Assembly (NCBI GenBank): GCA_030690945.1
Contig: JAUYFM010000016.1
Span: 1 to 63,931, forward strand
Length of the DNA: 63,931 nt
Origin: Smithellaceae bacterium
GTDB taxonomy: Bacteria; Desulfobacterota; Syntrophia; Syntrophales; Smithellaceae
Direction: 5' to 3'
The notes beneath the pieces were generated by a model. That model saw only the letters and a program-made list of their open reading frames with translations, had not been told where the DNA came from and ran no database searches. The position numbers were made by a program, and so were the translations under genes. This document shows positions 24,595-45,295 of this stretch, one piece after another. Each line of letters starts with the position of its first letter. The first letter of the stretch is position 1.

Positions 24595-25911
24595 TCACCG
24601 GTATTTTTTTATAAAATGATAATGGGAGCCGAAACGTTCAAATGCCGCCTGATCCAGTGCATCCTGATGTTTGGGGTGAGCAATGCTGATGATCAGCCGC
24701 GCCCGCTCCTGCAAGGATCGGCCGTAAAGATTCACCGCACCGAATTCCGTCACCAGCCAATGCGCATGGGCGCGTGTTGTCACCACGCCCGCGCCGGGCA
24801 GCAATGCGGGAGCGATCTTGCTGACCCCTTTGTCCGTAACCGACGGCATGGCAATAATGGCCTTGCCACCCCGGGAACGCGAAGCGCCATACATAAAATC
24901 GATCTGCCCGCCCACACCGGAGTAAAATTTCATGCCTAATGAGTCGGCGCAGATCTGGCCGGTCAGATCAACTTGCAGCGCGGAATTAATGGCCGTGACC
25001 TTCGGGTTTCTGGAAATGATAAACGGATCATTGGTATAGCCGACATCCTTCATCAGCACTTGTGCATTCTGATGCGTGTAATCATATAATTGTTTTGAAC
25101 CCAAAAGAAACGTCGCCACCATCTTTCCCTGATCAATCGCCTTCATCGCGCCGTTGATCACGCCTTTTTCCACAAGCCCGATTACGCCGTCGGCAAACAT
25201 CTCCGTGTGGATACCAAGATTTTTATGCCCGCCCAGTTGATCCAGCACCGCGTTGGGAATGGCGCCGATGCCCATCTGCAGGGTGGCGCCATCTTCGACG
25301 AGCGCCGCGCAATGCCTGCCGATGGCCGCTTCCAGAGCATCGGGTTTCGCAAAATGGCCCGTCTCCAGCGGGGTATCATCTTCGACAAAAATATTGATTC
25401 TGCTCAAGGGAATGACGGCATCGCCGAATGTGCGGGGAACATGCGGATTGATCACCGCAATCACGGTATCCGCTGTTTCCATGGCAGCCAGTGTTGCATC
25501 CACCGATGTCCCCAGGGACACTGTGCCTTGTTCATCCGGCGGACAGACTTGCACCATGGCCACATTGCAGGGCAGATAACCTTCGCGATAAAGACGCTGG
25601 GTTTCGCCTAAGAACACTGGAATGTAATCAGCATATCCCTGCTGGGTCGGCTTACGAACATTCGATCCGACAAAAAAAGAATCCAGCTGGAAAATACCTT
25701 CAAACTCCGGATCGGCATAAGGCGCCGGGCCTTCCGTATGGAGATGATGGATATGAACATCGCGCAATTCACCCGCGCGCCCGCGCCGGCACAAAGCGGC
25801 AACCAGGCACTGGGGGGAACTGGCCACACTGCTGAGATGGACATGATCGCCTGATTTGATGACCTCAACCGCTTCGTCAGGCGTTAAAATTTTGAGGTTT
25901 TTTCTGTCCAT
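24595..25911 (-). CDS. Acetyl-CoA hydrolase/transferase (4-hydroxybutyrate CoA-transferase-like)
   Basis: The 438-residue protein is a cat2-type CoA-transferase. GIHTEMFADG holds the catalytic Glu (E237), at the position expected from 4-hydroxybutyrate CoA-transferase. GVGGQIDFMYGASRSRGGKA and VTEFGAVNLYGRSLQERA are the other family signatures. It moves CoA between acetyl-CoA and a short acid; the acid is not known. I chose the ATG at 25911 (AGGATC upstream); an in-frame ATG at 25953 would add residues encoded by the MITE at 25935. A truncated relative lies at 22986 and a fused relative at 39809. It follows thiolase and hydrolase genes on the same strand. Confidence 0.9.
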   Translation of the reverse strand: MDRKNLKILTPDEAVEVIKSGDHVHLSSVASSPQCLVAALCRRGRAGELRDVHIHHLHTEGPAPYADPEFEGIFQLDSFFVGSNVRKPTQQGYADYIPVFLGETQRLYREGYLPCNVAMVQVCPPDEQGTVSLGTSVDATLAAMETADTVIAVINPHVPRTFGDAVIPLSRINIFVEDDTPLETGHFAKPDALEAAIGRHCAALVEDGATLQMGIGAIPNAVLDQLGGHKNLGIHTEMFADGVIGLVEKGVINGAMKAIDQGKMVATFLLGSKQLYDYTHQNAQVLMKDVGYTNDPFIISRNPKVTAINSALQVDLTGQICADSLGMKFYSGVGGQIDFMYGASRSRGGKAIIAMPSVTDKGVSKIAPALLPGAGVVTTRAHAHWLVTEFGAVNLYGRSLQERARLIISIAHPKHQDALDQAAFERFGSHYHFIKKYR

Positions 25912-25934
25912 ATTGATGATCCTGGCGAAGGGGA

Positions 25935-26044
25935 CTAGTGTCTCGTCAATCAAGAAATGTCATTTCGACCGCAGGGAGAAATCTAAGATTTCTCAGTCGT
26001 TATGACTCCTTCGAAATGACAGAGTATCGTTGACAGGACACTAG
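25935..26044. repeat. MITE-like element, family A copy 1
   Basis: This 110 bp element is identical base for base to 39612-39721. It begins CTAGTGTC and ends GACACTAG, and inside has GTCATTTCGACC facing TCGAAATGAC plus GAGAAATCT facing AGATTTCTC, so it folds into nested hairpins. It sits directly upstream of the CoA-transferase gene. Perfect identity implies recent spread or gene conversion. Confidence 0.85.
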
Positions 26045-26138: not shown

Positions 26139-26936
26139 TTATGACTTTAAAAACTCCCGAATATCGTGACTGAGCTGGTCTGGTTTTTCCAGCAGAATCG
26201 CGTGGCCGCAATTTTCGTAAATAATCATTTTCGCTTCCGGCAGCGTTTTTTGATAATCCTCCGCCAGCGGAATCGGGAAAAGCGGATCGTCCTTGCCTAA
26301 AATAATCAAGGTGGGCTGCGTAATATTCTGCGCCCGGCTGTTGATATCAAAAACACTGGCTGCTGCAAACTGCCTCAAAAAGGCATGCAGCGGTTGCGGA
26401 TTCTTCATCCGCAACTGGACTGCCTGATCCAAAATATCCGGGTGCTTTTCAACAAATCCCGGCGCCGTCATCATTGTTAAATCGATACGATATATCTGCT
26501 CGGCCGGTTTACCATAGATGGCTGCGGCCACTTTCTCCCAGAAAGGCTTGCCCAGTTCCTGGGATCGAGAACCGCCCATACCCGTCGCCACCAAAATCAG
26601 ACGGTTGACCCTGTCAGGATAAGACAGAGCCATTTCCTGTGCAATAAAACCACCCATGGAAAGCCCCGCCACGTGGGATTTTTCAATACCCAGCGCTCCC
26701 AGCAACCCGACTGCATCAGAAGCCATCAATTTAATGGAATATTCTTCATCCGGCTTGTCGGTTTGGCCGATGCCCCGGTTATCGAGCGCAATCACCCGGA
26801 AGTCTTTGGATAGTTCCCGTATCTGCGCGAACCATAAATCCATGGGAAAAGCCAGACCGTTAATGAGTATCAGCGGCTCGCCCTTGCCCTGCTCTTCGTA
26901 ATAAATTTTGATTCCGTTGACTGTTTGATGCGGCAT
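26139..26936 (-). CDS. Alpha/beta-fold hydrolase
   Basis: The 265-residue enzyme has the complete alpha/beta hydrolase triad: S93 in GLSMGG, an Asp in LGKDDPLFP (about 216) and His in CGHAILLEKP (about 245). The oxyanion region INGLAFPMDLW and the DNRGIGQTDKP motif resemble 3-oxoadipate enol-lactonase and ring-cleavage-product hydrolases. The substrate is not known; a thioester or lactone is possible beside thiolase and CoA-transferase genes. It lies 270 bases after the thiolase in the same direction, with a MITE of family B between them. Confidence 0.88.
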   Translation of the reverse strand: MPHQTVNGIKIYYEEQGKGEPLILINGLAFPMDLWFAQIRELSKDFRVIALDNRGIGQTDKPDEEYSIKLMASDAVGLLGALGIEKSHVAGLSMGGFIAQEMALSYPDRVNRLILVATGMGGSRSQELGKPFWEKVAAAIYGKPAEQIYRIDLTMMTAPGFVEKHPDILDQAVQLRMKNPQPLHAFLRQFAAASVFDINSRAQNITQPTLIILGKDDPLFPIPLAEDYQKTLPEAKMIIYENCGHAILLEKPDQLSHDIREFLKS

Positions 26937-27204: not shown

Positions 27205-28494
27205 TTAAACCGCTTCGAGGGCAATTGCCATGCCCTGGCCGCCGCCGATGCACAGGGATGCGAGCCCTAATTTAACATTGCGGCGCTTCATTTCATTGGC
27301 CAGCGCCAAAACAATGCGCGCCCCCGAACAGCCAACCGGGTGTCCGATGGAAATGGCCGAGCCGTTGACGTTGGTAATGTCCCAGGGAATATTCAGCTCG
27401 CGCAGGCAGGCCATGGCCTGAGAGGCAAACGCTTCGTTGAGTTCAAACAGGCCGTAGTCTTTAATCGACGTGCCGGTAATGCGCAACAGCTTGCGAACGG
27501 CAGGAACAGGACCCAGTCCCATATAAGCGGGATCAACGCCGCCTGAGGCATAGCCTTTAATCCGCGCCAGGGGTTTCAAACCCATCTGTTTGGCTTTGTC
27601 TTCGCTCATGATCAGCAAGGCCGCTGCCGCGTCGTTGATGCCGGAGGCGTTGCCGGCTGTGACCGTGCCGTCCTTCTTGAAAGCCGTGCCCAGCTTGGCC
27701 AGTTTTTCCATGCTGGTGTCCATCGGACGTTCGTCCGTATCGAAAATTATCGGGTTGCCCTTTTTTTGTGGGATGGTGACCGGAACAATTTCACCTTTCA
27801 GGAGGCCGCTTTTAATCGCGCTGCGGGCGCGGGTGTGGCTCTCGAGGCTCATCTTGTCCTGCTCCTCGCGGGAGATGTTGTAGCGCGCGGCGATGTTTTC
27901 GGCAGTAATGCCCATGTGGTAACCATAGAAAATTTCATACAGAGCATCAAATACCATCAGGTCAACGGTTTTGCCGAAAGGCATATCCATCCGGTGGCCC
28001 CAGCGGGCCTTGGGCAGGCCAATCGGAACATCGCTCATGTTTTCCATGCCGCCCGCGATGACAACCTCGCTGTCACCAGCCTTGATGGAGGCCGCGGCAA
28101 GCGCGATGGCCTTCATGCCGGAGGCGCAAACTTTGTTGATGGTGAAGGCCGTGGTTTCTTTGGGAAGACCGGCGCGAATCATGGCCTGGCGTCCGACATT
28201 TTGTCCCTGACCGGCTCCGATGACGTTGCCCATGATCACTTCATCCACGGCGATGTCCTTGAGATTGCCATCCCACTTGCAATACTGCTGCTCAATGGGC
28301 GAAAGGCCTTCGTTCTTTGCGGTATCCGGCGCATCTTCTTGGGCGTAGGCCGGCAACACCGGTTTGAAACCGGCTTTGATTAAAGTTTCGCGAATGACGA
28401 GCGCTCCCAGATCTTTGGCTGGAACGTCTTTCAGGGCACCGCCGAAGGCCCCAACCGCGGTGCGCGCACCGCTGACAATGACTGCATTTGACAT
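27205..28494 (-). CDS. Acetyl-CoA acetyltransferase (thiolase)
   Basis: Thiolase condenses two acetyl-CoA or cleaves acetoacetyl-CoA and longer 3-ketoacyl-CoA. The catalytic residues are visible: C123 in NKVCASGMKA, NEAFASQ, the His and Cys region GHPVGCSGAR and the C-terminal CIGGGQGMA. At 429 residues it is about 35 longer than usual; the extra stretch is at about 45-80 (LPAYAQEDAPDTAKNEG and following), between the first strand and the IDEVIMGNV-like motif. This insertion is known in some anaerobe thiolases but is worth noting. GGAGG lies upstream of the ATG. It leads a group of hydrolase and CoA-transferase genes. Confidence 0.93.
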   Translation of the reverse strand: MSNAVIVSGARTAVGAFGGALKDVPAKDLGALVIRETLIKAGFKPVLPAYAQEDAPDTAKNEGLSPIEQQYCKWDGNLKDIAVDEVIMGNVIGAGQGQNVGRQAMIRAGLPKETTAFTINKVCASGMKAIALAAASIKAGDSEVVIAGGMENMSDVPIGLPKARWGHRMDMPFGKTVDLMVFDALYEIFYGYHMGITAENIAARYNISREEQDKMSLESHTRARSAIKSGLLKGEIVPVTIPQKKGNPIIFDTDERPMDTSMEKLAKLGTAFKKDGTVTAGNASGINDAAAALLIMSEDKAKQMGLKPLARIKGYASGGVDPAYMGLGPVPAVRKLLRITGTSIKDYGLFELNEAFASQAMACLRELNIPWDITNVNGSAISIGHPVGCSGARIVLALANEMKRRNVKLGLASLCIGGGQGMAIALEAV

Positions 28495-30233: not shown

Positions 30234-30245
30234 TAAAAACCCCTT

Positions 30246-30340: not shown

Positions 30341-30341
30341 T

Positions 30342-30785
30342 TTATTTTGAAACCGGTGGCGGCTCATTCCAAACCAACCAGAACAAACCTAGCGATTTAA
30401 TCGCTTCCACAAACTTATTAAAGTCAACCGGTTTACGGACATAACTATTTGCGCCCAGTTTATACCCATTGGCCAAATCCACCTCTTGCGATGAAGACGT
30501 GAGGATAACCACCGGCAGTAGTTTAGTGGCCTCATTTTGGCGGATGGCCTTCAGCACTTCCATGCCGTCGATTTTTGGGAGCTTCAGATCCAGCAGGGTA
30601 ACTACGGGCATATCCGTCAAATCCCGTCCCGCATAAATCCCCTTTCCAAACAGGTAATCCAGGGCTTCCACACCATCTTTGGCCACGATCACCTTATTGA
30701 AGATATTGTTTTGTTTGAATGCCCGTAACGTCAACTCGACATCATCAGGATTGTCCTCCACCAGCAAAATAATTTTGTTACCCAC
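30342..30785 (-). CDS. Single-domain response regulator (Rcp1-like)
   Basis: The 147-residue protein is a receiver domain alone: acidic pair VEDNPDD near residue 10, phosphoacceptor Asp in TLLDLKLPKIDG (about 66), Thr/Ser in ILTSSS and Lys in VRKPVDF. This is the Rcp1 type that pairs with bacteriophytochrome-like histidine kinases with the same C-terminal layout as the kinase encoded upstream at 31395. It begins with GTG at 30785 preceded by GAGGAG. It may shuttle phosphate between the kinase and other proteins. Confidence 0.93.
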   Translation of the reverse strand: MGNKIILLVEDNPDDVELTLRAFKQNNIFNKVIVAKDGVEALDYLFGKGIYAGRDLTDMPVVTLLDLKLPKIDGMEVLKAIRQNEATKLLPVVILTSSSQEVDLANGYKLGANSYVRKPVDFNKFVEAIKSLGLFWLVWNEPPPVSK

Positions 30786-30802
30786 AATTCGCTCCTCTCA
30801 TT

Positions 30803-30902
30803 GCGTATCTCGTGAAGCGTCGTTCGTGAAGCGTATCTCGTATCTCGTCGTTCACGCTTCACGCTTCACGAGATGCGCTTCACGGTTTCTTCCGCTTCAC
30901 GA
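30803..30902. repeat. CGTGAAGCG linker repeat, copy 3
   Basis: Units of GTATCTCGTGAAGCGT and GTTCGTGAAGCG on the left, CACGCTTCACGAGATGCGC on the right. On the minus strand its last unit (TCGTGAAGCGG) supplies the Ser codon and TGA stop of the four-helix-bundle gene. Confidence 0.8.
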
Positions 30903-31268
30903 ATTTAATCGTTTTATTAAGTTTCTCAACATCCGCGACTCGTGATCGAGTTTCTCGATTATTTTATCTCTTCCTGCTTGTGTAATATATACCAAAGCAA
31001 CACTAACCTCAACTTGTGTTTCCAGTTCGGCGCATGATCCAAGAGCAATATATAAAAACTGACGATATTCTTTGTTATGATACCGGTTGAAGCCCTCGGC
31101 AATATTGGAAGTTATGGACACGGCCGCTCTTCTCATTTGACTTGCCAACCCGTATAATTCTTCTTTGGGAAATGTTTTTGTACATTCGTAAACATCGACG
31201 ACTATTTCCATCGCCAGCCGCCACACATCCAAATCCCTGAAGTTCTTTATCTTACTCTTTTCTTCCAT
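30897..31268 (-). CDS. Four-helix-bundle protein (S23/bAvd-like)
   Basis: The 123-residue protein is the widespread small four-helix-bundle family also found in 23S rRNA intervening sequences: FRDLDVWRLAMEIVVDVYE, then KTFPKEELYGLASQMRRAA, SITSNIAEGFNR and FLYIALGSCAELETQ are its hallmarks. The function is unknown; relatives of diversity-generating retroelements bind RNA. AGGAG precedes the ATG at 31268. The stop codon lies in the linker repeat. It has no signalling domain, so it is an oddity inside a two-component cluster and may be linked to the repeats themselves. Confidence 0.9.
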   Translation of the reverse strand: MEEKSKIKNFRDLDVWRLAMEIVVDVYECTKTFPKEELYGLASQMRRAAVSITSNIAEGFNRYHNKEYRQFLYIALGSCAELETQVEVSVALVYITQAGRDKIIEKLDHESRMLRNLIKRLNS

Positions 31269-31281
31269 CGTGAACTCCTAG

Positions 31282-31389
31282 TTCGTGAAGCGTCTTTCGT
31301 GAAGCGTATCTCGTTCTTTTACGCTTCACGCTTCACGTAATACGCTTCACTGGTTCTTGCGCTTCACTCTTCACGCTTCACGAGATACT
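31282..31389. repeat. CGTGAAGCG linker repeat, copy 4
   Basis: TTCGTGAAGCGTCTTTCGTG on the left faces two inverted stretches of CGCTTCACGCTTCACG on the right with a CTTTTA loop. It separates the PAS histidine kinase gene from the four-helix-bundle gene. Confidence 0.8.
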
Positions 31390-31394
31390 TTATT

Positions 31395-33992: not shown

Positions 33993-33999
33993 GAACTAC

Positions 34000-34083
34000 C
34001 TCGTATCTCGGAATTCGTGAAGCGTATCTCGTGAAGCGTATCTCGTTTTTACGCTTCACTCTTCACGCTTCACGAGTGACGCT
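34000..34083. repeat. CGTGAAGCG linker repeat, copy 5
   Basis: The shortest copy. On the minus strand it reads stop codon TCGTGA, GTGAAGCG units, an AAAAA loop, CGAGATACGCTTCACG units, then CGAGATACGAGG, whose GAGG serves as Shine-Dalgarno sequence of the kinase gene. The whole gap between the two genes (34070 to 33992) is repeat. Confidence 0.85.
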
Positions 34084-36700
34084 TTTCCAGCTCCGCAATC
34101 TGTTCTTTGAGTTCTATAATCCTCAACTCCCGGCCTACGAATGCCCGGTTCGTCTCTTCGAGCAGGTCAATCGTTTCATTAAGCTCCGCCGTCCGTTCTT
34201 TTATTCTCTGTTCCAAATTTTCATTGAGGTCACGGATTGATTCTTCCGCACGCTTTCGCGCGGTAATATTGCTGACGGCATGGACTGCGCCGGAATAATG
34301 ACCGTCCGCATCCAAGATGGGGTCCACTGTTACTTCAAACCAACCCTCTTCAGTCTTCAGCTCCATGATCTCACGGCGCAGGCTCTTTCGCGCCCGGAGA
34401 AGGGGACATTCGGGGATCGGCTGCGTCGTGCCGTGCACAATCTCCCAGCAGTATTTTCCGATAAATTCGCCGCATGGGCGATGAAAGAACTTCTCTGCGG
34501 TCTTATTCGATCGTAACACCCGTTGCTCCGAATCCAGAACCCAGATGGCCGTATCGGTGGAGTCAAAAGTGATCTGCCATTGTCTGCTTAATTCGCGTAT
34601 TGCTTCTTCCGCCTGCTTGCGCTCGGTTATGTCGTTGTGGACACCAAACATCCGAATTACTTTACCTTCATTATTTTTCAAAGAAGATGCTTTGTTGTGT
34701 ATCCACCGATAAGTTCCATCTTTGTGGCGAAACCTGAATTCCAACATAAAATGTTCAACAGGATGATTAAGATAAGAATAAACTGCATTTTGGCAGTTTT
34801 CTTTTTCCTCTGGATGAAGGTGTTCAACCCATGTATTGAAATCGTTTTTCAATTCATGATCTTTATAACCGATTTGTTTTTTCCATTGCTCAGAATAAAA
34901 AACTTCGTTGGCTTCAACATTCCAATCCCATATCCCTTGTTCTGAAGCATCAATAACAAGCTCATATCTTTCTTCACTCTCTTTCAGCTCCTTCTCGAAC
35001 CTTTTGCGCTCGGTGATGTCCTGGAACGCCCCATGAACTTTGATGATCTTCCCGGCTTCATCTTTTACCGGCTCGCCCATTGTCCTTATCCAGACCCGCT
35101 TGCCATTGGCAGTGATGATCTCCATTTCTTCATCATAGGGAATGCCGTTTTGGGCGCATTGGGTGAATACTTTTGTTATTTTTTCCCGCCACTCTGGCGC
35201 ATAATAGTTTATCCTCTCTTCCACCAATGGCGCATACCCGGCAGGCCTTTCGTGGATGGCCGCCGTTTCATCGGACCATGTACAAAGGTTGTTTTTCAGG
35301 TCAACGCTCCAGCCGCCAAGTTTTGCCTTCTCTCCGGCGATCCTCAAAAGGCTGGCATTTTCTTTAAGCCTTTCCTCCGCCCGCTTGCGTTCGGTGATGT
35401 CCAGGATGGAGATGATGCCTGCGGGTCTTCCTTGCACCGTTGTTGAGGCACCAGACAAATCGACACACTTCTGTGTGCCGTCCTTCGCGATGATCTTGAA
35501 TTCATGACGATTCGTCGTTTTTTCTCCCTGCTGGCGCTTCCGTCCGTGTTTCTGTATCACCGACTTGTAGTCGGGGTGGATGAAATCCCAGAAATTCATA
35601 GACAGAAGTTCTTTTACGGAATAACCGCAAATGATCTCGGCAGCGCTGTTCGCGTAAATCCAGCGGTCATCCTGGTAAAGCATCACCGCCGCGGGCGTCG
35701 AGTCAACCAGCACCCGGAACTTCTCCTCACTTTCCCGCAGCGCTTCTTCGGCCTGCTTGCGTTCGGTGATGTCTATTATTGTTGTTATAAAGAAAAGGGG
35801 GTTACGATTGGCATCACGATGCATTGCAACGCTAGTATCCGCCCAGATGTAAGAGCCGTTTTTGTGCGTATACCGTTTGTTGAACCGGGCTGAATCTTCC
35901 TTGCCCTGCAGGAGTGAATCTACAAATTTTTGAGTTGTTTCAATATCATCTGCAGGAGTAACGTCCTGCCATCTCTTGTTTTTTATTTCTTCCTTTGTAT
36001 AACCAAGCATATCACAAAACGCCTGGTTAACATTAATTTCACCTGTAAGAAGAGTAATAGACTTTCCGGTATTAGCCACCTCGAATACAGATTTATATTT
36101 TTCCTCGCTTATTCTCAAGGCCTCGGCATGCTGGATGGCTGATACCTGATCCGACAGAATCTTGCCGACAAGGATCGTCGCCAGCGGATATAGCAGAATC
36201 ACCGGTATGCCAACGCGTTTCACAACGCTCATAATGATATTTTCCGGCAGTGTGAACATCAGGGCAATCATGGCCACATGAACGACCAGACCAAAAAAGT
36301 AGAGATGCCGAGTGGATGGTGGCTGTGTTGACGGGCGTAGCCGGAAATGGGCCACCAGGCCGATCCCTGCTGATGAAAGAATAACCAGTACGCCCATGAT
36401 CGTCCCCACACCACCCAACCCGAGGCGGCAGGCGATTGTCATCAAACCGGCCACAGACGCCGCCCAGGGACCAAAAAAGAGGGCACACAAACTGATCATG
36501 ACCGATCGCCCGTCAAAGATCAGACCCGGCCCCATATTAAGCGGACGCAGCATCCCAATCACGGCGACTCCACCGAAGAGGACGCCTTGCATCAAAACAC
36601 CCAACCGGGTGCTCCGCGGCCAGTGTTTATCAATAAAACCGGAGACAACGCTAAGCGCCACCAGCAACGCCAAATTGGTAATCAAATCAAGATAAACCAT
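34070..36700 (-). CDS. 5TM-receptor multi-PAS signalling protein without kinase domain
   Basis: The 876-residue protein begins with a LytS/YhcK-type 5TM receptor (about 1-190; GLIFDGRSVMISLCALFFGP is its signature). Five PAS domains follow (about 200-320, 320-445, 445-570, 575-700 and 705-825), several with the DITERK linker. There is no HisKA, HATPase, GGDEF or EAL domain. Instead it ends in a coiled coil of about 45 residues with RELRIIELKEQIAELEK, closely shared with the HAMP-GAF protein at 36851. It probably signals through protein contact, perhaps to the kinase encoded next. Its TGA stop and part of its Shine-Dalgarno sequence come from linker repeats. Confidence 0.9.
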   Translation of the reverse strand: MVYLDLITNLALLVALSVVSGFIDKHWPRSTRLGVLMQGVLFGGVAVIGMLRPLNMGPGLIFDGRSVMISLCALFFGPWAASVAGLMTIACRLGLGGVGTIMGVLVILSSAGIGLVAHFRLRPSTQPPSTRHLYFFGLVVHVAMIALMFTLPENIIMSVVKRVGIPVILLYPLATILVGKILSDQVSAIQHAEALRISEEKYKSVFEVANTGKSITLLTGEINVNQAFCDMLGYTKEEIKNKRWQDVTPADDIETTQKFVDSLLQGKEDSARFNKRYTHKNGSYIWADTSVAMHRDANRNPLFFITTIIDITERKQAEEALRESEEKFRVLVDSTPAAVMLYQDDRWIYANSAAEIICGYSVKELLSMNFWDFIHPDYKSVIQKHGRKRQQGEKTTNRHEFKIIAKDGTQKCVDLSGASTTVQGRPAGIISILDITERKRAEERLKENASLLRIAGEKAKLGGWSVDLKNNLCTWSDETAAIHERPAGYAPLVEERINYYAPEWREKITKVFTQCAQNGIPYDEEMEIITANGKRVWIRTMGEPVKDEAGKIIKVHGAFQDITERKRFEKELKESEERYELVIDASEQGIWDWNVEANEVFYSEQWKKQIGYKDHELKNDFNTWVEHLHPEEKENCQNAVYSYLNHPVEHFMLEFRFRHKDGTYRWIHNKASSLKNNEGKVIRMFGVHNDITERKQAEEAIRELSRQWQITFDSTDTAIWVLDSEQRVLRSNKTAEKFFHRPCGEFIGKYCWEIVHGTTQPIPECPLLRARKSLRREIMELKTEEGWFEVTVDPILDADGHYSGAVHAVSNITARKRAEESIRDLNENLEQRIKERTAELNETIDLLEETNRAFVGRELRIIELKEQIAELEKRHS

Positions 36701-36706
36701 ATAGAC

Positions 36707-36855
36707 CTCGTCGTTCGTCGCTCGGGATTCGTGAAGCGTCGTTCGTGAAGCGTGAAGCGAAAAAAATCGTCACTCATGAAACGTGAAGAGTGAGATGCGA
36801 GATACTAGATACGAGATGCGCTTCACTCTTCACGCTTCACGAGATACGCTTCACG
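36707..36855. repeat. CGTGAAGCG linker repeat, copy 6
   Basis: A 149 bp copy with GTTCGTGAAGCGTGAAGCG on the left and CGCTTCACTCTTCACGCTTC on the right around an A-rich loop. On the minus strand it starts with the ACGTGA stop of the HAMP-GAF gene and ends with GACGAGG, the Shine-Dalgarno sequence of the 5TM-PAS gene. Confidence 0.8.
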
Positions 36856-38362
36856 TCTTCTGCTTTTCCAGCTCCGCAATCCTTGCCTTCAGCTCCCGCA
36901 TCCGCAATTCCCGATCCACAAATACTTTATTGATCCGCTCCAGCTCGGCGGTTCTGGCCGACAATTCAGCAGTTCTCTGGGCAACGCGTCCTTCGAGCTC
37001 TTTATTAAGCAGCCTGAGCTCGTCTTCCACCTGATAGCGCTTCTTTGCAAGTTCCATTATTTCAAGCGCATAGTTAATATTATTGGTAACTTCATTAAGC
37101 AGGTTTATTTCCTCTTCATTGAAAAAGAACGGGTCGGCATCGTAAATTGTGAACACGCCGATGACCCTGTGCTGCAAAACAAGCGGCAGAGAGATGACGG
37201 AACGGTAACCGCGCTGTAATGCCTCCTCCCGCCAGAGAGCCATGATGGGATCATTCGCTATATCATTGCAGAAAAAAAGTTTCCCCTCACGGGCTGCGAT
37301 ACCAGCTGGCCCACCGCCTTCCGGGATATCTTTTGTAGAAATTTTCTTGATTTTGGTGAGATAGCCTTCCTCAAAGCCGCTCCAGACAGCAGGCTTAATA
37401 ATTTTATCTTGCTCATCAATCAGTCCAACCCAGGCCATCCGGAATTTTCCGTATTCAACGGCGATGAGACAAACCTCGGCAAATAATTTTTTCTGCTCAC
37501 GGGTGCGGATAACCATTTGATTGATTTGGCTGATGACCGCCAAAACACGGTTGGTACGTCCTAGGTTTTCTTCCACCCGCTGCCGCTCCGCTATCTCATT
37601 CCCTAAATTTTTCAAGGAGGTATGTGATTGTTTCAGTTTAACCACCATTTTATTGCTGGCACGGGCCAAATCCGCCAGTTCATCGTCATCTTCAGCAACT
37701 ATTTGATAATCCAGATTACCATCTCCAATAACTTTAATTCCGTCAGTGAGCGTAGCCAGACGTTTCGTCAGGACTTTGTTGAGGTTGGTTGAATTGATGG
37801 CTATCACCATGCCGCCGCCCACAAAGATGAAGATGATCACGAAAGCGCCTATATTTTTTGCCCTTTTTGCTGCCATTTCAGTTGATTCATGCAATCTTCC
37901 GAGACTATCTATCAAGGCGTAGGACTTCAGAAATACCTGGCCGATCAACCGCGATTCCGCTTCATCAAAAGTAAATCTCTCGTCCGAACGGCGATTCTCT
38001 CGCTTATGTTTCTCCAGTATCGCTGAGAACATAGAGTATGTCGCATCAGAATCCTTCCGCGCTTCCTGCAGCAGGGCTTTGTCCTCTCCGGTCGTAAACT
38101 GGCCAGCCGCTTTTTCCATTAATACCCGGATAGTTTCGGATTTTGCCTGCCACTGGATGCTCGCCCGTTCTTCCCGATACAGAAGATAATCGTCCCGCAA
38201 TGCGATGCGCTCAAAAGCGATGTTCCGTATTTTCAATACCAGATTTACATTCCGGCCGGCTCTTTCATGCCACCAGAATGACAAAGCCAGGCAAAGTATC
38301 ATGATGATGATAACAACCATGTAGATCAAGCTATTGAGTCTAAGTTTTGTTTTGATCTTCAT
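36851..38362 (-). CDS. HAMP-GAF membrane signalling protein with coiled-coil tail
   Basis: The 503-residue protein has a transmembrane helix at about 12-33, a helical periplasmic sensor (about 35-165), a second helix at about 170-190, a HAMP domain (about 192-245, ending DELADLARASNKMV), a coiled-coil linker, a GAF domain (about 280-425) and a C-terminal coiled coil. There is no output enzyme. The tail RELRMRELKARIAELEK matches the tail of the next protein (34070) almost residue for residue, preceded in both by an N-x-x-F-V motif. Its position right after the solute-binding lipoprotein gene suggests it may read that protein's ligand state. GAGG precedes the ATG. Confidence 0.88.
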   Translation of the reverse strand: MKIKTKLRLNSLIYMVVIIIMILCLALSFWWHERAGRNVNLVLKIRNIAFERIALRDDYLLYREERASIQWQAKSETIRVLMEKAAGQFTTGEDKALLQEARKDSDATYSMFSAILEKHKRENRRSDERFTFDEAESRLIGQVFLKSYALIDSLGRLHESTEMAAKRAKNIGAFVIIFIFVGGGMVIAINSTNLNKVLTKRLATLTDGIKVIGDGNLDYQIVAEDDDELADLARASNKMVVKLKQSHTSLKNLGNEIAERQRVEENLGRTNRVLAVISQINQMVIRTREQKKLFAEVCLIAVEYGKFRMAWVGLIDEQDKIIKPAVWSGFEEGYLTKIKKISTKDIPEGGGPAGIAAREGKLFFCNDIANDPIMALWREEALQRGYRSVISLPLVLQHRVIGVFTIYDADPFFFNEEEINLLNEVTNNINYALEIMELAKKRYQVEDELRLLNKELEGRVAQRTAELSARTAELERINKVFVDRELRMRELKARIAELEKQKT

Positions 38363-38368
38363 ATTTTC

Positions 38369-38567
38369 CTCGTATTGCGTGAAGCGTATCTCGTTAAGCG
38401 TATCTCGGAATTCGTGAAGCGTATCTCGTGAAGCGTGAAGCGAAAAAAACCGTTACTCGTGAAACGTAAACACTGACCACCTAAGGATGGCACGAGCGCG
38501 AGATACGAAATACGAGATACGCTTCACGTGTTCTTTCGCTTCACGCTTCACGAGATACGCTTCACGT
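38369..38567. repeat. CGTGAAGCG linker repeat, copy 7
   Basis: The longest copy (about 200 bp), with GCGTGAAGCGTATCTCG units on the left and CGAGATACGCTTCACG units on the right, interrupted by a short unrelated stretch (CACTGACCACCTAAGGATGG). It fills the gap between the solute-binding protein and HAMP-GAF genes. On the minus strand it ends in TACGAGG, the Shine-Dalgarno sequence of the HAMP-GAF gene. Confidence 0.8.
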
Positions 38568-38573
38568 TTGTTA

Positions 38574-39584
38574 CTAACGAATTATCCTCACCGCCGCAGG
38601 CTTGACCGCCAAAAGGCCGTCCATATAAATAAAATCAAGATAATTGGGCATATCCCGGCGCGCCACTAATTGGTTTTTTATGGCCCACCGCGTCTGGTCT
38701 TCCAAGTCCACCAGCAGAGCTTGATCGAGGGTCACCCGGAACGTGAAAATGTCCCATGTTTCATCAAGAATGCCTTTGTCCGTTTTGAGGAATTCAGCCA
38801 CCAGTCGCCTTGCTTCTTCGGGATGCTCAAGCACAAATGTTTCAGCCTTGATCAGCGCCCGCAAAACCTTTTTTATCGCTTCAGGATTCTTCTTTACATA
38901 TTCCTGCGAGGCGACAACGCAGAAGTTCTCTGTATAGAGTGATTCCCCGAAGAAGATTATCCCGTTGTTTCCCAATTTCTTCTTCAGTTGGCTCAAGGTA
39001 GGATTCCATGTGGAGACGGCATCAACTTTTCCCGTGGCAAGAGCTTTGGCCATCTCGTCGGGCTTTAGATCAATAATTTTGACTTGTTTTATGTCAATAC
39101 CCTGTGCCAGCAGAAAAGAATCCGCGAAGAAATGCCCCGTTGTCCCCAACGTCAGGCCGATTTTTTTCCCTTTCAGATCTGATGGCTTGGCAATCCCGCG
39201 GTCTTGCCTGGCCACGATGGCTTCATTTTTGTTGGAAGTCTGGATCGCTGCAAGAATGTTGATTTTCTTGCCGCCCATGACGGCAAGCATGATCGGTGTA
39301 TCCGCAACGGTGGCTACATCCGCCTTTCCATCCATCATTGACTGGAGCGCTAATTTTCCAAAGGCATGGGGCTGCGGTGTTGCGTCCAGCCCTTCTTCCT
39401 TAAAATAATTCTTCACGAGGGCGATATGCACGAGAGTTGAATTGAAAATAGTTGTATAAGCTATGGTGATTTTTTCCGGCGGGCTGGCCGGTTTTTGCTG
39501 GCAGCCGTTGACGGTCAAGGTGATGAACGCGATGGCGGTAAGAATAAGGCTGGTGAAACGGCGTGTCGCCTGGAAATGAACCAT
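38574..39584 (-). CDS. NitT/TauT-type solute-binding lipoprotein
   Basis: The 336-residue protein has a signal peptide with a lipobox-like end (LTVNGC, Cys near 28), then a periplasmic-binding fold of the SsuA/ThiY/TauA type: ITIAYTTIFNSTLVHIALVKNYFKEEGL split over 39-66, GKADVATVADTPI, DLKGKKIGLTLGT and VDAVSTWNPTL. Such proteins normally feed ABC importers for sulfonates, nitrate or thiamine precursors. No permease or ATPase gene is near. It is instead the first gene of a sensor cluster, so I infer a role as ligand-sensing subunit. The ligand cannot be predicted. Confidence 0.87.
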   Translation of the reverse strand: MVHFQATRRFTSLILTAIAFITLTVNGCQQKPASPPEKITIAYTTIFNSTLVHIALVKNYFKEEGLDATPQPHAFGKLALQSMMDGKADVATVADTPIMLAVMGGKKINILAAIQTSNKNEAIVARQDRGIAKPSDLKGKKIGLTLGTTGHFFADSFLLAQGIDIKQVKIIDLKPDEMAKALATGKVDAVSTWNPTLSQLKKKLGNNGIIFFGESLYTENFCVVASQEYVKKNPEAIKKVLRALIKAETFVLEHPEEARRLVAEFLKTDKGILDETWDIFTFRVTLDQALLVDLEDQTRWAIKNQLVARRDMPNYLDFIYMDGLLAVKPAAVRIIR

Positions 39585-39808: not shown

Positions 39809-41719
39809 TTATTTTGCCCTGGCGGCACCTCCGTTTGCAGCAGCTTGCGCCGCCAGATTGAAGCGCAAAATCACTGCGTCAGTATCGGACGTGCGGGACA
39901 TTGCAATTTTTGACTTTTCAAAGACTTTCAGCATAGCCTCATTGCGCGGCAGCACATAAGCGATAAAGCAGCCAATCCCCCGGTCGCGGGCGATCTTAAT
40001 CAGGTAGTTAAACATGAAAGTGGCAACGCCTTTTCCCTGAAACTCTTCATCGACAATGAAAGCGATTTCATAAGCACCCGCTCTTTTATCGTAAGCGTAA
40101 CGCGCCTCGGCGATGATTCTTTCATTGCGGCCTTTTTCCACGATGGCGACAACCGAAAGAACCTCCTCGTAATCAATGCTGACGTAGGTTTGCATTTCTT
40201 TGTGCGGCATAACAGGCTTCGAGGCAAAATAGCGGAAATATTTTGATTCGTCGGAAAAATTGTAAAACAGACGGCGCATCATGTCCTCATCGGACGATTT
40301 GATCGGACGGATTTTAATTTCCAGACCGTCTCGCAGGGATTTGCGCGTTTCCAGCCCGGACGGGTAGTTGGCGGCATGGCGGGCAACATAAATCTGATCC
40401 GCATAGACATAATTAAGCGCCTTGGCCTGGTTAAGCAAACTTTCGCGATGATCGGGATGGGCAATGTCGATCATCGCAATGGCCCGCTCCCGGATGGACT
40501 TGCCGAAAAGATTCGCCACGCCGTATTCGGTGACGATATATTTGACGACGCCCAGCGTGCTGTGAGGGTTGTCAATGTCACAGTCATGCTTGATGACGAT
40601 GTTGCTTTGCCCTTGTTTATCCACGGAATTGAGCGCCACAATCGCCTTGCCTCTTTTGGAAATGGTTGCGGCCACCGCAAAGCTCAGTTTGCTTTCATAA
40701 CCGGAAAGGAGATTGTCGCCGGAATGGAAAATGACCAACTCGCCGGAAATATCGATTTTTTTAACGTTCACGATGCCGATGAGACTTTTGATTCGCCGCA
40801 CAACGAAGGGGTTGCTCAGCCGGGCAATCGGATAAAACTCAAAAACGGGATTGCGGTTAACATACTCATACAAGGCGCGACTTCCGTAACAATAGCTCGC
40901 CGTGACGAGGCCCCCGTTATAACGGCTGCGGTCCAGCGAGATCGCGCCGGAATTGATCAGATCAATAACCCAGTCGGAAAGAACATGCGTCAGAATGCCG
41001 AGATTTTTCTTGTTTTTCAAATGAGCGGCCACGGCGTTGAATATCCTGCCAACATGCAGCACCACGGTTGCGCCGTCCTCGATCAGGTTTGCTATATTCC
41101 AGCCAATACGGTCCACGATTGCATCATAGGGCTTGTTTTCCCGCTCAATAAGCGGCAAATCGCTTTCGATAATATAGTCGATACTGCTGATATGAATGGC
41201 CGTCTCGCCGTGGGTTACCGGCATGTTTGGATTGATCTCCGCAATCGTCAGCGACGCCTGCTTAATAACGATATTGGCCACATCCACCGCCACGCCCAGA
41301 GACACAAACCCTTTGTCGTCGGGCACGGAAGTCTGGATAATCGCCACATCCACCGCCACCGCGCCGCTTAAAAAAATGTAAGGCAGCTCCATCAGGTTGG
41401 CGGGAATGAAATCGACTTTGCCTTCGGCAATTTCCTTGCTGATACTCTCGCCGATATTGAATGTCTTTAACCGGTATTGCCTGTATCCGTCGCGTTGAGA
41501 CGGAAGATAATTGCCCAGCGTAATGAGCTGAATGATTTCCAGATCGCGGATATTGCGCGCGCCGGACGCGGCAATGGCCGACAGAACTTTCCCCGGGGCC
41601 GCGACAGCGCTTGAGACAAAAATTTTCTGTCCGGGTTTTAGTTTTTCCAGCGCCTGATCCGTACTGATCACTTTGCTGCGATAATCGAACGAACCTGTCA
41701 TTTTGCAATTTTCCATCAT
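39809..41719 (-). CDS. Acetyl-CoA hydrolase/transferase fused to a GNAT acetyltransferase
   Basis: The 636-residue protein has a cat2-type CoA-transferase part (about 10-440) and a C-terminal GNAT domain (about 460-615; acetyl-CoA loop FQGKGVATFMFNYLI). Family motifs are present (SVPDDKGFVSLG, EINPNMPVTHGE, VTEYGVANLFGKSIRERA). The segment that carries the catalytic Glu in relatives (GIHTEMFADG in the protein at 24595) reads GILTHVLSDW here, so Glu is replaced by H245. Acyl transfer through a glutamyl-CoA thioester is then unlikely; the first part may sense acyl-CoA and steer the acetyltransferase, possibly a protein lysine acetylase. GGAGG precedes the ATG. It is divergent from the carboxylase operon. 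Confidence 0.88.
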   Translation of the reverse strand: MMENCKMTGSFDYRSKVISTDQALEKLKPGQKIFVSSAVAAPGKVLSAIAASGARNIRDLEIIQLITLGNYLPSQRDGYRQYRLKTFNIGESISKEIAEGKVDFIPANLMELPYIFLSGAVAVDVAIIQTSVPDDKGFVSLGVAVDVANIVIKQASLTIAEINPNMPVTHGETAIHISSIDYIIESDLPLIERENKPYDAIVDRIGWNIANLIEDGATVVLHVGRIFNAVAAHLKNKKNLGILTHVLSDWVIDLINSGAISLDRSRYNGGLVTASYCYGSRALYEYVNRNPVFEFYPIARLSNPFVVRRIKSLIGIVNVKKIDISGELVIFHSGDNLLSGYESKLSFAVAATISKRGKAIVALNSVDKQGQSNIVIKHDCDIDNPHSTLGVVKYIVTEYGVANLFGKSIRERAIAMIDIAHPDHRESLLNQAKALNYVYADQIYVARHAANYPSGLETRKSLRDGLEIKIRPIKSSDEDMMRRLFYNFSDESKYFRYFASKPVMPHKEMQTYVSIDYEEVLSVVAIVEKGRNERIIAEARYAYDKRAGAYEIAFIVDEEFQGKGVATFMFNYLIKIARDRGIGCFIAYVLPRNEAMLKVFEKSKIAMSRTSDTDAVILRFNLAAQAAANGGAARAK

Positions 41720-41878: not shown

Positions 41879-43327
41879 GTGAAAAAAATTAATAAAGTGC
41901 TGGTGGCCAACCGGGGGGAAATCGCTCTTCGCATTATCCGCACCGTTAAGGAAATGGGGCTTTCTACCGCCGCGGTTTATGAAAAACCGGACAGCGAAGC
42001 GTATTTTTTACGATTTGCCGATCAGGCCATTCTGATTGGCGACGGGCCGCGCAAGGATTACCTTAATATTGATAAAATCATCTGGGCGGCGCAAAAAGCC
42101 GGGGCGGATGCCATTCATCCCGGTTACGGTTTTTTATCGGAAAACCCTGATTTGGCCACAGCCTGTGAAGATGCAGGTATCACGTTCATCGGGCCGCCGC
42201 CCAAGGTTATTCGCGATCTGGGCAACAAGGTCGTCGCTCGTGATATCATGAAGAAAGCCGCTATCCCGTTTATTCCGGGAACCGGCGCGCTGGCCGACGG
42301 CGAAGAAGGCATTCGAGAAGCATTGGCCTTCGCAGCTCAGCAAGGGTATCCGATCATGCTCAAGGCACTGGCCGGCGGCGGTGGCCGCGGCATCCGCAAA
42401 ATTGCCGGAGAAGAAGAACTCCGCGCGCAGCTGCCGCAGGCGCGCTTTGAAGCACGCTCCGCCTTCAATGACGACCGTATTTATATTGAAAAATGCGTAG
42501 AGTCGCCGCGGCATATCGAAGTGCAGATTCTGGCCGACGCTTACGGTCACATCATGCACCTGGGGACAAGGGATTGCTCCATCCAGCGCCGTCATCAGAA
42601 ACTGCTGGAAATCGCACCCGCCGATCTGCCGCCTTCCGTCCTCGAGGCCATGCACCAGACGGCGATACAGGCGGCGCGCCAGGCGGGTTATGTCAACGCC
42701 GGAACGGTGGAGTTTCTGGTCGATCCCCAAACCAACCAATTCTGGTTTATGGAAGTCAACACCCGGCTTCAGGTGGAACACACCGTTACCGAAATCCTCA
42801 CGGGCATCGACATTATTCGTCAGCAGATTCTGCTGGCCGAAGGCGGCCGACTCGAAATTCCGGAAGAACGAATCTATCTGGTCGGCAAAGCCATTCAGGT
42901 CCGCGTCAACGCCGAAGACCCCAAAAATAATTTCATGCCCGAAGGCGGCAAACGCGTGGACGTGTATCAGTCGCCCGGCGGTCCCGAAATCCGCCTCGAC
43001 GGCATTGTCTATCAGGGCTATAAAATACCGACTGATTACGATTCGCTGCTCGTGAAGCTGACTGTGCGCGGCTATTCCTGGGAACAAACGATTCAGCGCC
43101 TGAAACGCGCGCTGAAAGATTTTTTAATCGTCGGGCCCAAAACCACGATCCCCTTTTATCTGGCCATTTGCGATGAAAAAGATTTCCGCAACGGTCAATT
43201 TACGACCAGCTATCTTGATCTGCATCCCGAAATATTCAATTATCCCGACGCCGAGCGGGAAATCGCCAAGCTGTCGAGGTTGATCGCAGAAATCCATTCC
43301 AGAAAGATAAATCCCTACGCTTATTAA
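41879..43327 (+). CDS. Biotin carboxylase subunit (AccC/PycA-like)
   Basis: The 482-residue protein carboxylates biotin at the expense of ATP and bicarbonate. It begins with GTG at 41879 (KKINKVLVANRGEIALRIIR). The ATP-grasp region has GGGGRGIR, KCVESPRHIEVQILAD, the EVNTRLQVEHTVTEILTG signature and a C-terminal biotin-carboxylase domain. Length fits a stand-alone subunit. It lies 36 bases before a gene with carboxyltransferase and biotinyl domains, so the two form a two-subunit carboxylase like the PycA/PycB enzymes of methanogens and some deltaproteobacteria. Confidence 0.93.
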   Translation: MKKINKVLVANRGEIALRIIRTVKEMGLSTAAVYEKPDSEAYFLRFADQAILIGDGPRKDYLNIDKIIWAAQKAGADAIHPGYGFLSENPDLATACEDAGITFIGPPPKVIRDLGNKVVARDIMKKAAIPFIPGTGALADGEEGIREALAFAAQQGYPIMLKALAGGGGRGIRKIAGEEELRAQLPQARFEARSAFNDDRIYIEKCVESPRHIEVQILADAYGHIMHLGTRDCSIQRRHQKLLEIAPADLPPSVLEAMHQTAIQAARQAGYVNAGTVEFLVDPQTNQFWFMEVNTRLQVEHTVTEILTGIDIIRQQILLAEGGRLEIPEERIYLVGKAIQVRVNAEDPKNNFMPEGGKRVDVYQSPGGPEIRLDGIVYQGYKIPTDYDSLLVKLTVRGYSWEQTIQRLKRALKDFLIVGPKTTIPFYLAICDEKDFRNGQFTTSYLDLHPEIFNYPDAEREIAKLSRLIAEIHSRKINPYAY

Positions 43328-43363: not shown

Positions 43364-45295
43364 ATGAAAAACTTACCGGAAGGTAGAATAACGCCCCAGG
43401 AACTCAAAAGCGCCGGGGTCAAATATATTCTGGACAAAATGAGCGGGCAAAAAGGTTATTATGTCACCAACGCTGAAAGAGATCTGTCGCAGTCTGATTT
43501 TAAAAACCGGATCATGCCGCATACGCAAATTCTGGTGGCGCAGGAACGAAATGCGGCCGGTTACTTTTCTCTGGAAATTACGGGCGGCGCGTCGGTGCAT
43601 GTCGATATGCTGCGCAAGCAGATGAACCCGCTGGAAAAACTGGAGGTATTGAGCGGCTATATGCCGGATACGCTTTTCCAGACATTGTGCCGCGGGATCA
43701 ATTTGTTCGGCTACCGGCCCTATCCCGAAAACGTCATCCGCCTGACGGTCGAAGCGTTTGCCCGATATGTCCATGTCTGGCGCGTCTTTGATTTCTTAAA
43801 CTACATTCCTAATATGATTCCTGTTTATGAGGAAGTTAAAAAAGCAGGAAGGATTCTGGAGGCGGCGGTCTGTTTTTCCACGGGACCGGAACACACCAAC
43901 AAGTTCTACCTGAAAAAGGTCGCCGAGATTCTGGATGTGACCGGACCGGACATCATTCTGGCGATTAAAAATCATGGCGGCCTGGGGTCGCCCAGACGCA
44001 TGGGCGACCTGGTTCATGTAATCCGTCAGAAACATCCGGACCTGCTGATCCACTATCACGGGCACAACACCGACGGCAATGAAATCAGCCGCGTGGTGGC
44101 CGCCGTCCAAAACGGCGCGAATATCGTGGACGCCGGCGATCACGCCCTGACCGGTTTTTACGGCCCGCCGCCGCTCTTGACGGTGGTGAACACGCTGGAA
44201 GATTATGGTTACACGGCCATCGGCCTGGATAAACAGGCGGTGATTGACACCTCCAACAAGCTCAGACATGAGCGGCAATATTATCGTGATTTTGAATCAC
44301 AGTTCTTTGGGTTTGACCCGACGGTGCAAACCCATAAACTGCCCGGTGGCGCGACGGGATCGAGCTTTGAACAAGCGATCAAGGGCGGCTTTCTCGACCG
44401 GATGCCGGAAATTTTACAAAACGAACTGCCGAGAGTGCAAACCGATCTGGGCAATTTCTGGAGCGTCACGCCCGGTTCGCAGATTCTCTGGACGACCGCC
44501 GCCAATAACGTACTCAAAAGAGAGCGCTATAAAGATGCGAGCGACGATTTGAAAAACCTGCTTCTGGAACGCTACGGCAAATTTCCGTTTTACCGTCCCG
44601 CCGACGACATCTATGCAGCGGTCTTTGGTAAGGATTGGAAGAAAATTCTCAAAAACGAGGGCGGCTACCAGAAGATTGAGGACGTCGATCTGGCCATTGA
44701 AAAACGCATGCTGGAACACAGCCTGGGCAGGTCCGCTTCAGACGACGAGCTGGTATTGTATCTCCAGCATCCCCATGATGCGGTAAGCTTCTTTAAGTTT
44801 GAGGAAAAATTCGGCAAGACCTGGGCTCTGCCGCCGGAGGTCTGGCTCAGGCGCGGCGGTTTTAATATCGGCGAAAAATTTGAATTCCCCGACGCCTATG
44901 GCAAATTGCATGCCATTGAAATCGGCCCTTCGCGCCGCACCAAAGATGGCTCTTTTATGACGATCCTGGGGATTGATTATCATCCCGAACCGATTATCAC
45001 GCTGGTTGAAAATGAAGGCGGAGAAAAACTCAAATCCAAAGTCACGCTAACACCCAAGGAAATTGGGGCACTGGCCAGAGTGGGCGACATCCGCGCAACG
45101 ATGAAAGGCGTGGTCAATCAGATTCCCGTGGCTGTGGGCGAAGCGGTAAGCGACGGAGATCCACTGGTCGTCCTGGAAGCCATGAAAATGCTGACCAATA
45201 TCGTAGCCGAATTCAGCGGCAAAGTGACGGAGATTCTTGTCTCGCCCGGTTCATCCGTGGAAATCGGCGAAAAGCTGATGATGATTGAGATATAG
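43364..45295 (+). CDS. Divergent carboxyltransferase with biotinyl domain (PycB/OadA-like)
   Basis: The 643-residue protein has an HMGL-like TIM barrel (about 20-300), a PYC_OADA middle domain (about 320-540) and a C-terminal biotinyl domain with the EAMKM biotin site. Metal-site features HGH (in HYHGHNTDG) and the Lys in AIKNHGG match pyruvate carboxylase, and RGINLFGYRPYP equals its RGxNLVGYRxY motif. But the DAHQSLLAT segment that supplies the metal-binding Asp reads MPHTQILVAQ. So this is a biotin-dependent carboxyltransferase whose substrate may not be pyruvate. It forms an operon with the biotin carboxylase upstream. AGGAG lies upstream of the ATG. Confidence 0.85.
   Translation: MKNLPEGRITPQELKSAGVKYILDKMSGQKGYYVTNAERDLSQSDFKNRIMPHTQILVAQERNAAGYFSLEITGGASVHVDMLRKQMNPLEKLEVLSGYMPDTLFQTLCRGINLFGYRPYPENVIRLTVEAFARYVHVWRVFDFLNYIPNMIPVYEEVKKAGRILEAAVCFSTGPEHTNKFYLKKVAEILDVTGPDIILAIKNHGGLGSPRRMGDLVHVIRQKHPDLLIHYHGHNTDGNEISRVVAAVQNGANIVDAGDHALTGFYGPPPLLTVVNTLEDYGYTAIGLDKQAVIDTSNKLRHERQYYRDFESQFFGFDPTVQTHKLPGGATGSSFEQAIKGGFLDRMPEILQNELPRVQTDLGNFWSVTPGSQILWTTAANNVLKRERYKDASDDLKNLLLERYGKFPFYRPADDIYAAVFGKDWKKILKNEGGYQKIEDVDLAIEKRMLEHSLGRSASDDELVLYLQHPHDAVSFFKFEEKFGKTWALPPEVWLRRGGFNIGEKFEFPDAYGKLHAIEIGPSRRTKDGSFMTILGIDYHPEPIITLVENEGGEKLKSKVTLTPKEIGALARVGDIRATMKGVVNQIPVAVGEAVSDGDPLVVLEAMKMLTNIVAEFSGKVTEILVSPGSSVEIGEKLMMIEI

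Follow-up and report, generated by a model that had tools for sequence, protein, structure and literature searches.

A CoA-Transferase/GNAT Fusion Lacking the Catalytic Glutamate in a Smithellaceae Bacterium: a Candidate Pseudoenzyme Regulator of Protein Acylation

Introduction

The Type I and II KATs (Pat, PatZ/YfiQ, SlPatA) combine a Pat-type GNAT domain with a large CoA-handling enzyme domain from which the catalytic residue, a His in class II KATs, is missing (PMC8556138). This second domain is a dead acyl-CoA synthetase, and that of Salmonella Pat binds acetyl-CoA (PMC8556138). The fusion described here has the same arrangement, but the residue lost is a Glu, and the partner is a CoA-transferase in a protein of 636 aa instead of an NDP-forming acyl-CoA synthetase in one of about 900 aa. 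With the Type III KATs (cAMP-, NADP+-, and ACT-GNAT) it shares an N-terminal non-GNAT domain and a C-terminal GNAT domain; the regulatory domains of the Type III proteins, however, are smaller ligand-binding modules.

On the CoA-transferase side, the fold is shared with AbfT, AtoA, and RipA, which are 4-hydroxybutyrate or butyryl-CoA:acetate CoA-transferases with 28-32% identity over the CoA-transferase half. By contrast, in the fusion the Glu, the GGQ loop, and Arg389 are replaced and a GNAT domain is appended. The 3-methylglutaconyl-CoA decarboxylase AibA/AibB is also a CoA-transferase relative without the Glu, but it consists of two subunits and is still an enzyme, and the available part of its description mentions no GNAT portion (PMC7756340).

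Five GNAT types are set out in the accessible sections of two reviews, none of them with a CoA-transferase partner (PMC8556138, PMC6456759). In those sections the term “CoA transferase” occurs once in the former, for the acetate:succinate enzyme, and never in the latter. No description of a CoA-transferase/GNAT fusion was found within an open-licence library of papers. Bifunctional proteins of this type carry a product name in NCBI annotation, and the architecture is therefore not novel in itself; what appears to be undescribed is that fusions are repeatedly found in a pseudoenzyme state. Syntrophic bacteria operate at the thermodynamic limit, with acyl-CoA enzymes that are heavily acylated (PMC9676460). 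To our knowledge, no acyltransferase dedicated to this modification has been described in such organisms.

We consider it probable, though not strongly so, that the fusion is a Pat-type protein lysine acyltransferase with a pseudoenzyme CoA-transferase as its regulatory or docking domain. It is best read as convergent with the Pat proteins of E. coli and Salmonella, in which a dead acyl-CoA synthetase takes the place of the CoA-transferase.

Domain Organization of the Fusion

The window, i.e., the whole stretch of DNA analysed, comprises 63,931 nucleotides of contig JAUYFM010000016.1 from a Smithellaceae bacterium (assembly GCA_030690945.1). The fusion gene lies on its minus strand, and frame 1 of the plus strand across 39809-41719 is interrupted by stops. 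The gene and its parts are the following:

39809..41719, minus strand: CoA-transferase/GNAT fusion gene, 636 aa, ATG start
40415..41686, minus strand: CoA-transferase domain, residues 12-435, transferase-dead as judged by sequence (Pfam PF02550 and PF13336, 2oas match, 17 of 47 conserved positions replaced)
39860..40339, minus strand: GNAT domain, residues 461-620, Pat type (Pfam and closest structures)
40985..40987, minus strand: His245 codon (CAT), in place of the catalytic Glu (alignment)
41054..41056, minus strand: His222 codon, in place of the Gly found in 151 of 151 Glu-bearing sequences
40688..40705, minus strand: residues 339-344, SGYESK, in place of the SG.GGQ loop and containing Glu342
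40067..40069, minus strand: Glu551 codon, putative general base of the GNAT (aligned with chain residue 235 of M. tuberculosis Pat)
40022..40039, minus strand: GNAT P-loop QGKGVA, residues 561-566 (motif Arg/Gln-x-x-Gly-x-Gly/Ala)

Pfam places the N- and C-terminal domains of acetyl-CoA hydrolase/transferase at residues 57-187 (PF02550, 79.6 bits) and 279-432 (PF13336, 131.2 bits), and the GNAT domain in a best stretch of 515-602. The fusion has no Pfam match to an acyl-CoA synthetase domain, which is present in a 906-aa protein of the same genome (L246). The nearest solved structures are 4-hydroxybutyrate CoA-transferases for residues 12-432 and Pat proteins for residues 450-622. A structure model of the whole fusion, built from a 43-row alignment, has a mean pLDDT of 83.3 and a pTM of 0.81, and its superposition on 2oas (Z 45.0, rmsd 2.8, 417 residues aligned) indicates that the CoA-transferase fold is intact. 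Both the fusion and the Glu-bearing unfused paralogue at 24595-25953 (166.3 and 283.5 bits, respectively) score below the NCBIfam cut-off of 674.8 bits for butyryl-CoA:acetate CoA-transferase (TIGR03948). A plasmid search with the fusion as query returned 183 records, none spanning 80% of the query.

The motif GILTHVLSDW of the fusion aligns with GIHTEMFADG of the paralogue, so that His245 occupies the column in which the paralogue and the three PDB homologues compared carry Glu, the residue that forms the acyl-glutamyl anhydride in class I CoA-transferases. This substitution, the starting point of the earlier note, is present as described there. The paralogue's catalytic Glu is residue 251 counted from the TTG start and 237 from Met15, and its designation as E237 fits the latter.

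Distribution of the Glutamate

A search of genome contigs yielded 78 loci of relatives (the best 80 of 106 stretches), to which 120 further fusion regions from Desulfobacterota genomes were added, hand-picked from ranked lists. The final alignment contains 207 proteins, 174 fusions and 33 unfused, after removal of short, broken, and duplicate rows. These removals concern ORFs shorter than 380 aa (L028, which also has His, L006, fragments in L017 and L024, and the second half of L065), the broken L065, L010 (identical to the query), P0002 (identical to L004), and the duplicates L096, L097, and L192; L147, read in a wrong frame among the fusions, was corrected before counting. The unfused set consists of 5 proteins from the fusion's own genome and 28 from the query-recruited loci; 20 more come from the ranked list, and since the unfused protein of L242 is identical to that of L014 and is counted once, there are 52 distinct unfused proteins in total.

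Across the 174 fusions, column 245 holds E in 118, D in 23, H in 19, P in 5, Y in 4, Q in 2, and N, G, and L in one each. The Glu is thus absent from 56/174 aligned fusions, which is not a population frequency because the regions were hand-picked from ranked lists, vs. 0/52 distinct unfused enzymes (Fisher's test, p 3.2e-8, on 53 unfused rows and with related rows that are not independent). Both the Glu and GGQ are found in all 52 distinct unfused proteins. Among the fusions, exact GGQ occurs in 86/118 of the Glu-bearing and 0/56 of the Glu-less, and the GG of the loop in 117/118 and 8/56, respectively. An apparent loss of the Glu in 4/38 unfused enzymes was rejected, as three cases were wrong-strand shadow frames (L117, L124, L142) and the fourth was the broken gene L065.

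Loss of the Glu across the entire fusion group is therefore ruled out: 118/174 retain it and 56 lack it, and the question raised in the earlier note, whether the whole group has lost the residue, receives a mixed answer. As far as sequence can tell, fusion by itself does not imply a dead transferase, since most aligned fusions keep the Glu. The Glu-bearing fusions (e.g., L002 of the same genome) have the same two-domain architecture and length as the window fusion but, retaining both Glu and, in 117 of 118, GG, may be genuinely bifunctional. Of the nine Glu-less lineages described below, three (8/56 sequences) have changed Glu to Asp only and kept GG, and these could retain some activity.

Matches at E <= 1e-190 are found in 163/395 Desulfobacterota genomes, and the best unfused match listed, at 2.0e-169, falls short of that level; if the fusions are regulatory, their role would concern much of this phylum. 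Contigs of metagenome bins titled Lokiarchaeota also carry fusions, with Glu on six (L040, L042, L043, L047, L049, L050) and with His on a seventh (L039).

Number of Losses and Origin of the Fusion

Two trees, in which the two motif regions were omitted, describe the relationships: one built by FastTree from all 207 rows, the other by a quick IQ-TREE run from 74 of them. Parsimony gives 9 changes on both, i.e., nine separate Glu-less lineages. The first is the window clade, including a P/Y subclade (28 rows, support 100), and the second is a D clade of mixed taxonomy that includes one G (15 rows, support 100), with members titled, e.g., Desulfobacter, Sulfuricella, and Paucibacter in their records. 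The other seven are a smaller D clade (6 rows), a pair with Q, and five rows that each stand alone. A single loss, with all Glu-less fusions in one common clade, is rejected by the AU test (p 3.4e-110), and so is the joining of three lineages (the two D clades, the larger one including its G row, and L149; 13 rows, p 5.4e-9). Holding the two largest Glu-less clades together is not rejected (p 0.625, likelihood 10.85 higher), and the nine losses may therefore be eight or fewer. We read the phylogeny as several independent losses, about 8-9, of which the count may be 8 or fewer.

The origin of the fusion itself is seen differently on the two trees. With IQ-TREE the 66 fusions group together with a support of only 27, and with FastTree rooted on L007 they split into six groups.

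Gene Neighbourhood and Genome Inventory

The genes of the window that bear on the fusion are:

27205..28494, minus strand: thiolase (acetyl-CoA C-acyltransferase), 11.3 kb from the fusion in the window
26139..26936, minus strand: alpha/beta hydrolase, of the same ancestral operon
24595..25953, minus strand: unfused CoA-transferase with Glu and GGQ, of the same ancestral operon
41879..43327, plus strand: biotin carboxylase subunit of the pyruvate carboxylase type, in divergent orientation, with 159 bases between it and the start of the fusion
43364..45295, plus strand: carboxyltransferase/biotin subunit (pyruvate carboxylase subunit B type)

In relatives the order on one strand is fusion, thiolase, alpha/beta hydrolase, and unfused CoA-transferase. 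The thiolase lies immediately 3' of the fusion in 8/15 of the loci L011-L028 with enough downstream sequence, and the CoA-transferase is third downstream in 7/7 of those eight that extend far enough. Upstream on the opposite strand, the pyruvate-carboxylase-type pair or one gene of it is present in 8/18 of the loci L011-L028, a count in which the gene of L020 sits behind another gene and in which L014, L015, and L026 extend hardly at all in the upstream direction. The interval between fusion and thiolase in the window (28770-39584) contains genes whose translations read as sensors or regulators and an NMT1-like binding protein. Part of this stretch is found in L012, with a 96% identical fusion, and it is lacking in L024 (95%), so the stretch was probably inserted or lost recently.

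Ten matches to PF13336 occur in the genome. Four of these belong to fusions, which carry Glu (L002), Leu (L008), Pro (L009), and, in the query, His. As Glu-bearing and Glu-less versions coexist in one genome, the passage from metabolic enzyme to sensor is a directly testable question. The genome also encodes one sirtuin, an acetyl-CoA synthetase with PKTRSGK that scores above its curated cut-off, and 15 PF13607 matches, of which the one examined (L246) is a synthetase-GNAT protein of 906 aa.

The ancestral operon suggests another role for the dead half, namely that it heteromerises with the unfused CoA-transferase and so brings the GNAT domain to acylate that enzyme or the thiolase, with sensing being secondary. 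The consecutive order of the four genes on one strand in relatives favours this arrangement, as does the usual formation of dimers and tetramers by such CoA-transferases. In Syntrophomonas wolfei, moreover, a CoA-transferase and a thiolase are reported to be heavily lysine-acylated, and the Act2 CoA-transferase to be a likely homotetramer (PMC9676460). However, the fusion and the paralogue are only about 33% identical, which is low for a shared interface, and the contigs of the other two Glu-less fusions of the genome (C8, C48) contain no further PF13336 match and hence no such partner nearby. We regard heteromerisation as unlikely, although it is the strongest of the alternatives to a pseudoenzyme regulator.

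Several further genes were observed beside these. On contig C56 (L247:5031-9204), the Glu-bearing L002 is aligned with genes for a PaaK-like AMP-forming ligase and an ACT-domain protein and with an ORF of 145 aa that has no Pfam match. The ligase suggests itself as a candidate target. The Pro-bearing L009 (L249:4993-8061, contig C48) comes after a glycerol-3-phosphate dehydrogenase-like gene. In the window, a 182-aa ORF on the minus strand (22986-23534) consists of a C-terminal CoA-transferase domain only (PF13336, 197 bits) and looks like the remnant of another CoA-transferase. Near the other CoA-transferases, a 600-aa protein encoded on the plus strand (21162-22964) matches the CoA-transferase family PF01144 in two stretches but nothing in NCBIfam at 1e-10. 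A plus-strand ORF of 1530 aa (14304-18896), with no Pfam match at 1e-5 and weak PADLOC matches to PDC-M54A (1.5e-8) and LmuA (9.7e-8, residues 7-235), is possibly a phage-defence protein.

Changes in the Pocket

Within the window's clade, the H clade comprises 20 fusions, after five unfused rows from the same loci were dropped for being without GNAT. Position 245 is occupied by His in 18 of them and by Asn and Tyr in one each, and this conservation among relatives rules out an artefact, chance, or a single sequencing error as the origin of His245. The earlier note had held that other family motifs remain; this is true of NPNMP and VTEYG, and not of the GGQ loop, G222, and R389, which are altered. 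Replacement residues are themselves conserved in the clade (E342 and L389 in 20/20, H222 and H245 in 18/20), vs. G342 and R389 in 150/151 and G222 in 151/151 of the Glu-bearing sequences. Beyond the Glu, the pocket changes are thus G222H, G342E, G343S, and R389L, accompanied by less uniform ones such as H243L (50%) and G382T (25%). Of 47 positions conserved both in Glu-bearing fusions and in unfused enzymes, 17 are replaced in the H clade, 12 in the P/Y clade, 6 in the D15 clade, and 1 in the D6 clade. A metal site formed by His222, His245, and Glu342 was considered; the three residues are not strictly coupled. Taken together, the replacements look like a rebuilt pocket and not like decay.

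An additional Glu in the active site, which the earlier note had named as evidence against its proposal, is partly present in the sequence in the form of Glu342, located in the former GGQ loop in 20/20 of the H clade. The catalytic Glu might accordingly have moved, with Glu342 and His245 performing CoA transfer or another acyl-CoA reaction (hydrolysis, decarboxylation) in an enzyme that is changed and not dead. A precedent is the AibA/AibB decarboxylase, which has a Cys for the Glu of the glutaconate CoA-transferases, its closest structural homologues (PMC7756340). Yet the P/Y sister clade has Gly342 in 8/8, meaning that the shared loss of Glu245 came without Glu342, and Arg389 and the loop glycines are gone as well; a relocated nucleophile is accordingly improbable.

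What the pocket of a pseudoenzyme regulator would bind is a separate matter. AarC-E294A, described as inactive (<=0.0043 units vs. 43 for an equal mass of wild type), gives crystals in which it is closed over bound CoA and an analogue of acetyl-CoA (PMC4876117), so loss of the Glu alone need not abolish binding. Judging from spacing, Gly388 of AarC, 94 residues past the Glu there, would correspond to the GGQ loop, at residue 339 here. The loss in the H clade reaches further, to the GGQ loop, G222, and R389, and acyl-CoA binding at the old site is therefore not assured. Sensing of acyl-CoA by the CoA-transferase half is plausible, and a different ligand is possible.

The GNAT Domain

The GNAT half of the model matches S. 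lividans Pat (4u5y, Z 25.2, 164 residues aligned), and phmmer finds the GNAT of SlPatA (4nxy) at 1e-22. In the alignment, Glu551 falls on residue 235 of 4ava, the Pat chain of M. tuberculosis; the M. smegmatis counterpart of that residue, E234, has been named as a possible base (PMC8556138). This position holds E or D in 172/174 fusions, including 54/56 of the Glu-less. The P-loop motif, Arg/Gln-x-x-Gly-x-Gly/Ala as defined in PMC8556138, is present in its strict form in 97/118 Glu-bearing and 43/56 Glu-less fusions. The mycobacterial NCBIfam model for Pat (NF058543) gives 76.1 bits, far below its cut-off of 460, with only positions 132-284 of 317 matched.

GNAT folds serve many acceptors, and the acceptor might be a small molecule (amine, amino acid, antibiotic), with the transferase half shaping the acyl-CoA supply. 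Pointing in this direction, the GNAT half weakly matches a model for arsinothricin N-acetyltransferase (2.7e-4) and a structure resembling phosphinothricin acetyltransferase (3.2e-6). But the best GNAT matches are Pat proteins, other GNATs scoring lower, and we think a small-molecule acceptor as doubtful as a relocated Glu.

Selection on the CoA-Transferase Half

In the window clade, dN/dS ranges from 0.037 to 0.198 for the CoA-transferase half (11/12 pairs gave a value) and from 0.035 to 0.239 for the GNAT half (9/12 pairs), values with dS above 1 being saturated and rough. The median ratio of CoA-transferase to GNAT protein distance is 0.52-0.99 in four Glu-less clades vs. 0.49-1.75 in seven Glu-bearing ones, with no general acceleration of the CoA-transferase half in the four Glu-less clades compared. 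Across 14 sequences, 20% of residues 12-56, 39% of 57-190, 42% of 191-278, and 47% of 279-432 are invariant, and 31% of the GNAT. The dead CoA-transferase domain in the window's clade is under purifying selection. Ordinary decay, with a vestigial transferase half and a GNAT that alone matters, would fit the repeated loss of nucleophile and loop, but it is very improbable given purifying selection similar to that of the GNAT, a full length that is kept, conserved replacement residues, and an invariance in residues 191-278 and 279-432 that exceeds that of the GNAT. One broken fusion, L065, is seen within a Glu-less clade.

Proposed Mechanism

For a Pat-type acyltransferase with a pseudoenzyme regulator, we infer the acetyltransferase activity, regulation, ligand, and targets as follows. 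The GNAT half would do the chemistry, with acetyl- or acyl-CoA in the P-loop, Glu551 as the base, and a lysine of a metabolic enzyme as the acceptor. The CoA-transferase half would form no glutamyl-CoA adduct and would control the GNAT instead, either through a CoA ester or similar metabolite bound in its altered pocket, or by assembly with and docking onto partner enzymes, or by both. Likely targets would be enzymes of acyl-CoA metabolism, i.e., the thiolase or unfused CoA-transferase of the ancestral operon, or AMP-forming acyl-CoA synthetases. The earlier note had proposed that the CoA-transferase half is a regulatory domain for the GNAT, sensing acyl-CoA. The regulatory part gains from the loss of the nucleophile, the constraint on the domain, and a GNAT nearest to Pat; the acyl-CoA-sensing part is weaker. 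As the H clade is changed well beyond the Glu, its ligand is uncertain, and the domain may not bind acyl-CoA at all.

More generally, CoA-transferases joined to a Pat-type GNAT may have turned into pseudoenzyme regulators several times independently, paralleling the dead acyl-CoA synthetase of Pat, with syntrophs such as the present one carrying several; we hold this wider proposal tentatively, as a serious possibility that stops a little short of probable. If true, acyl-CoA-responsive protein acylation would have been built from at least two unrelated CoA enzymes. The present genome has four CoA-transferase fusions and at least one synthetase-GNAT protein.
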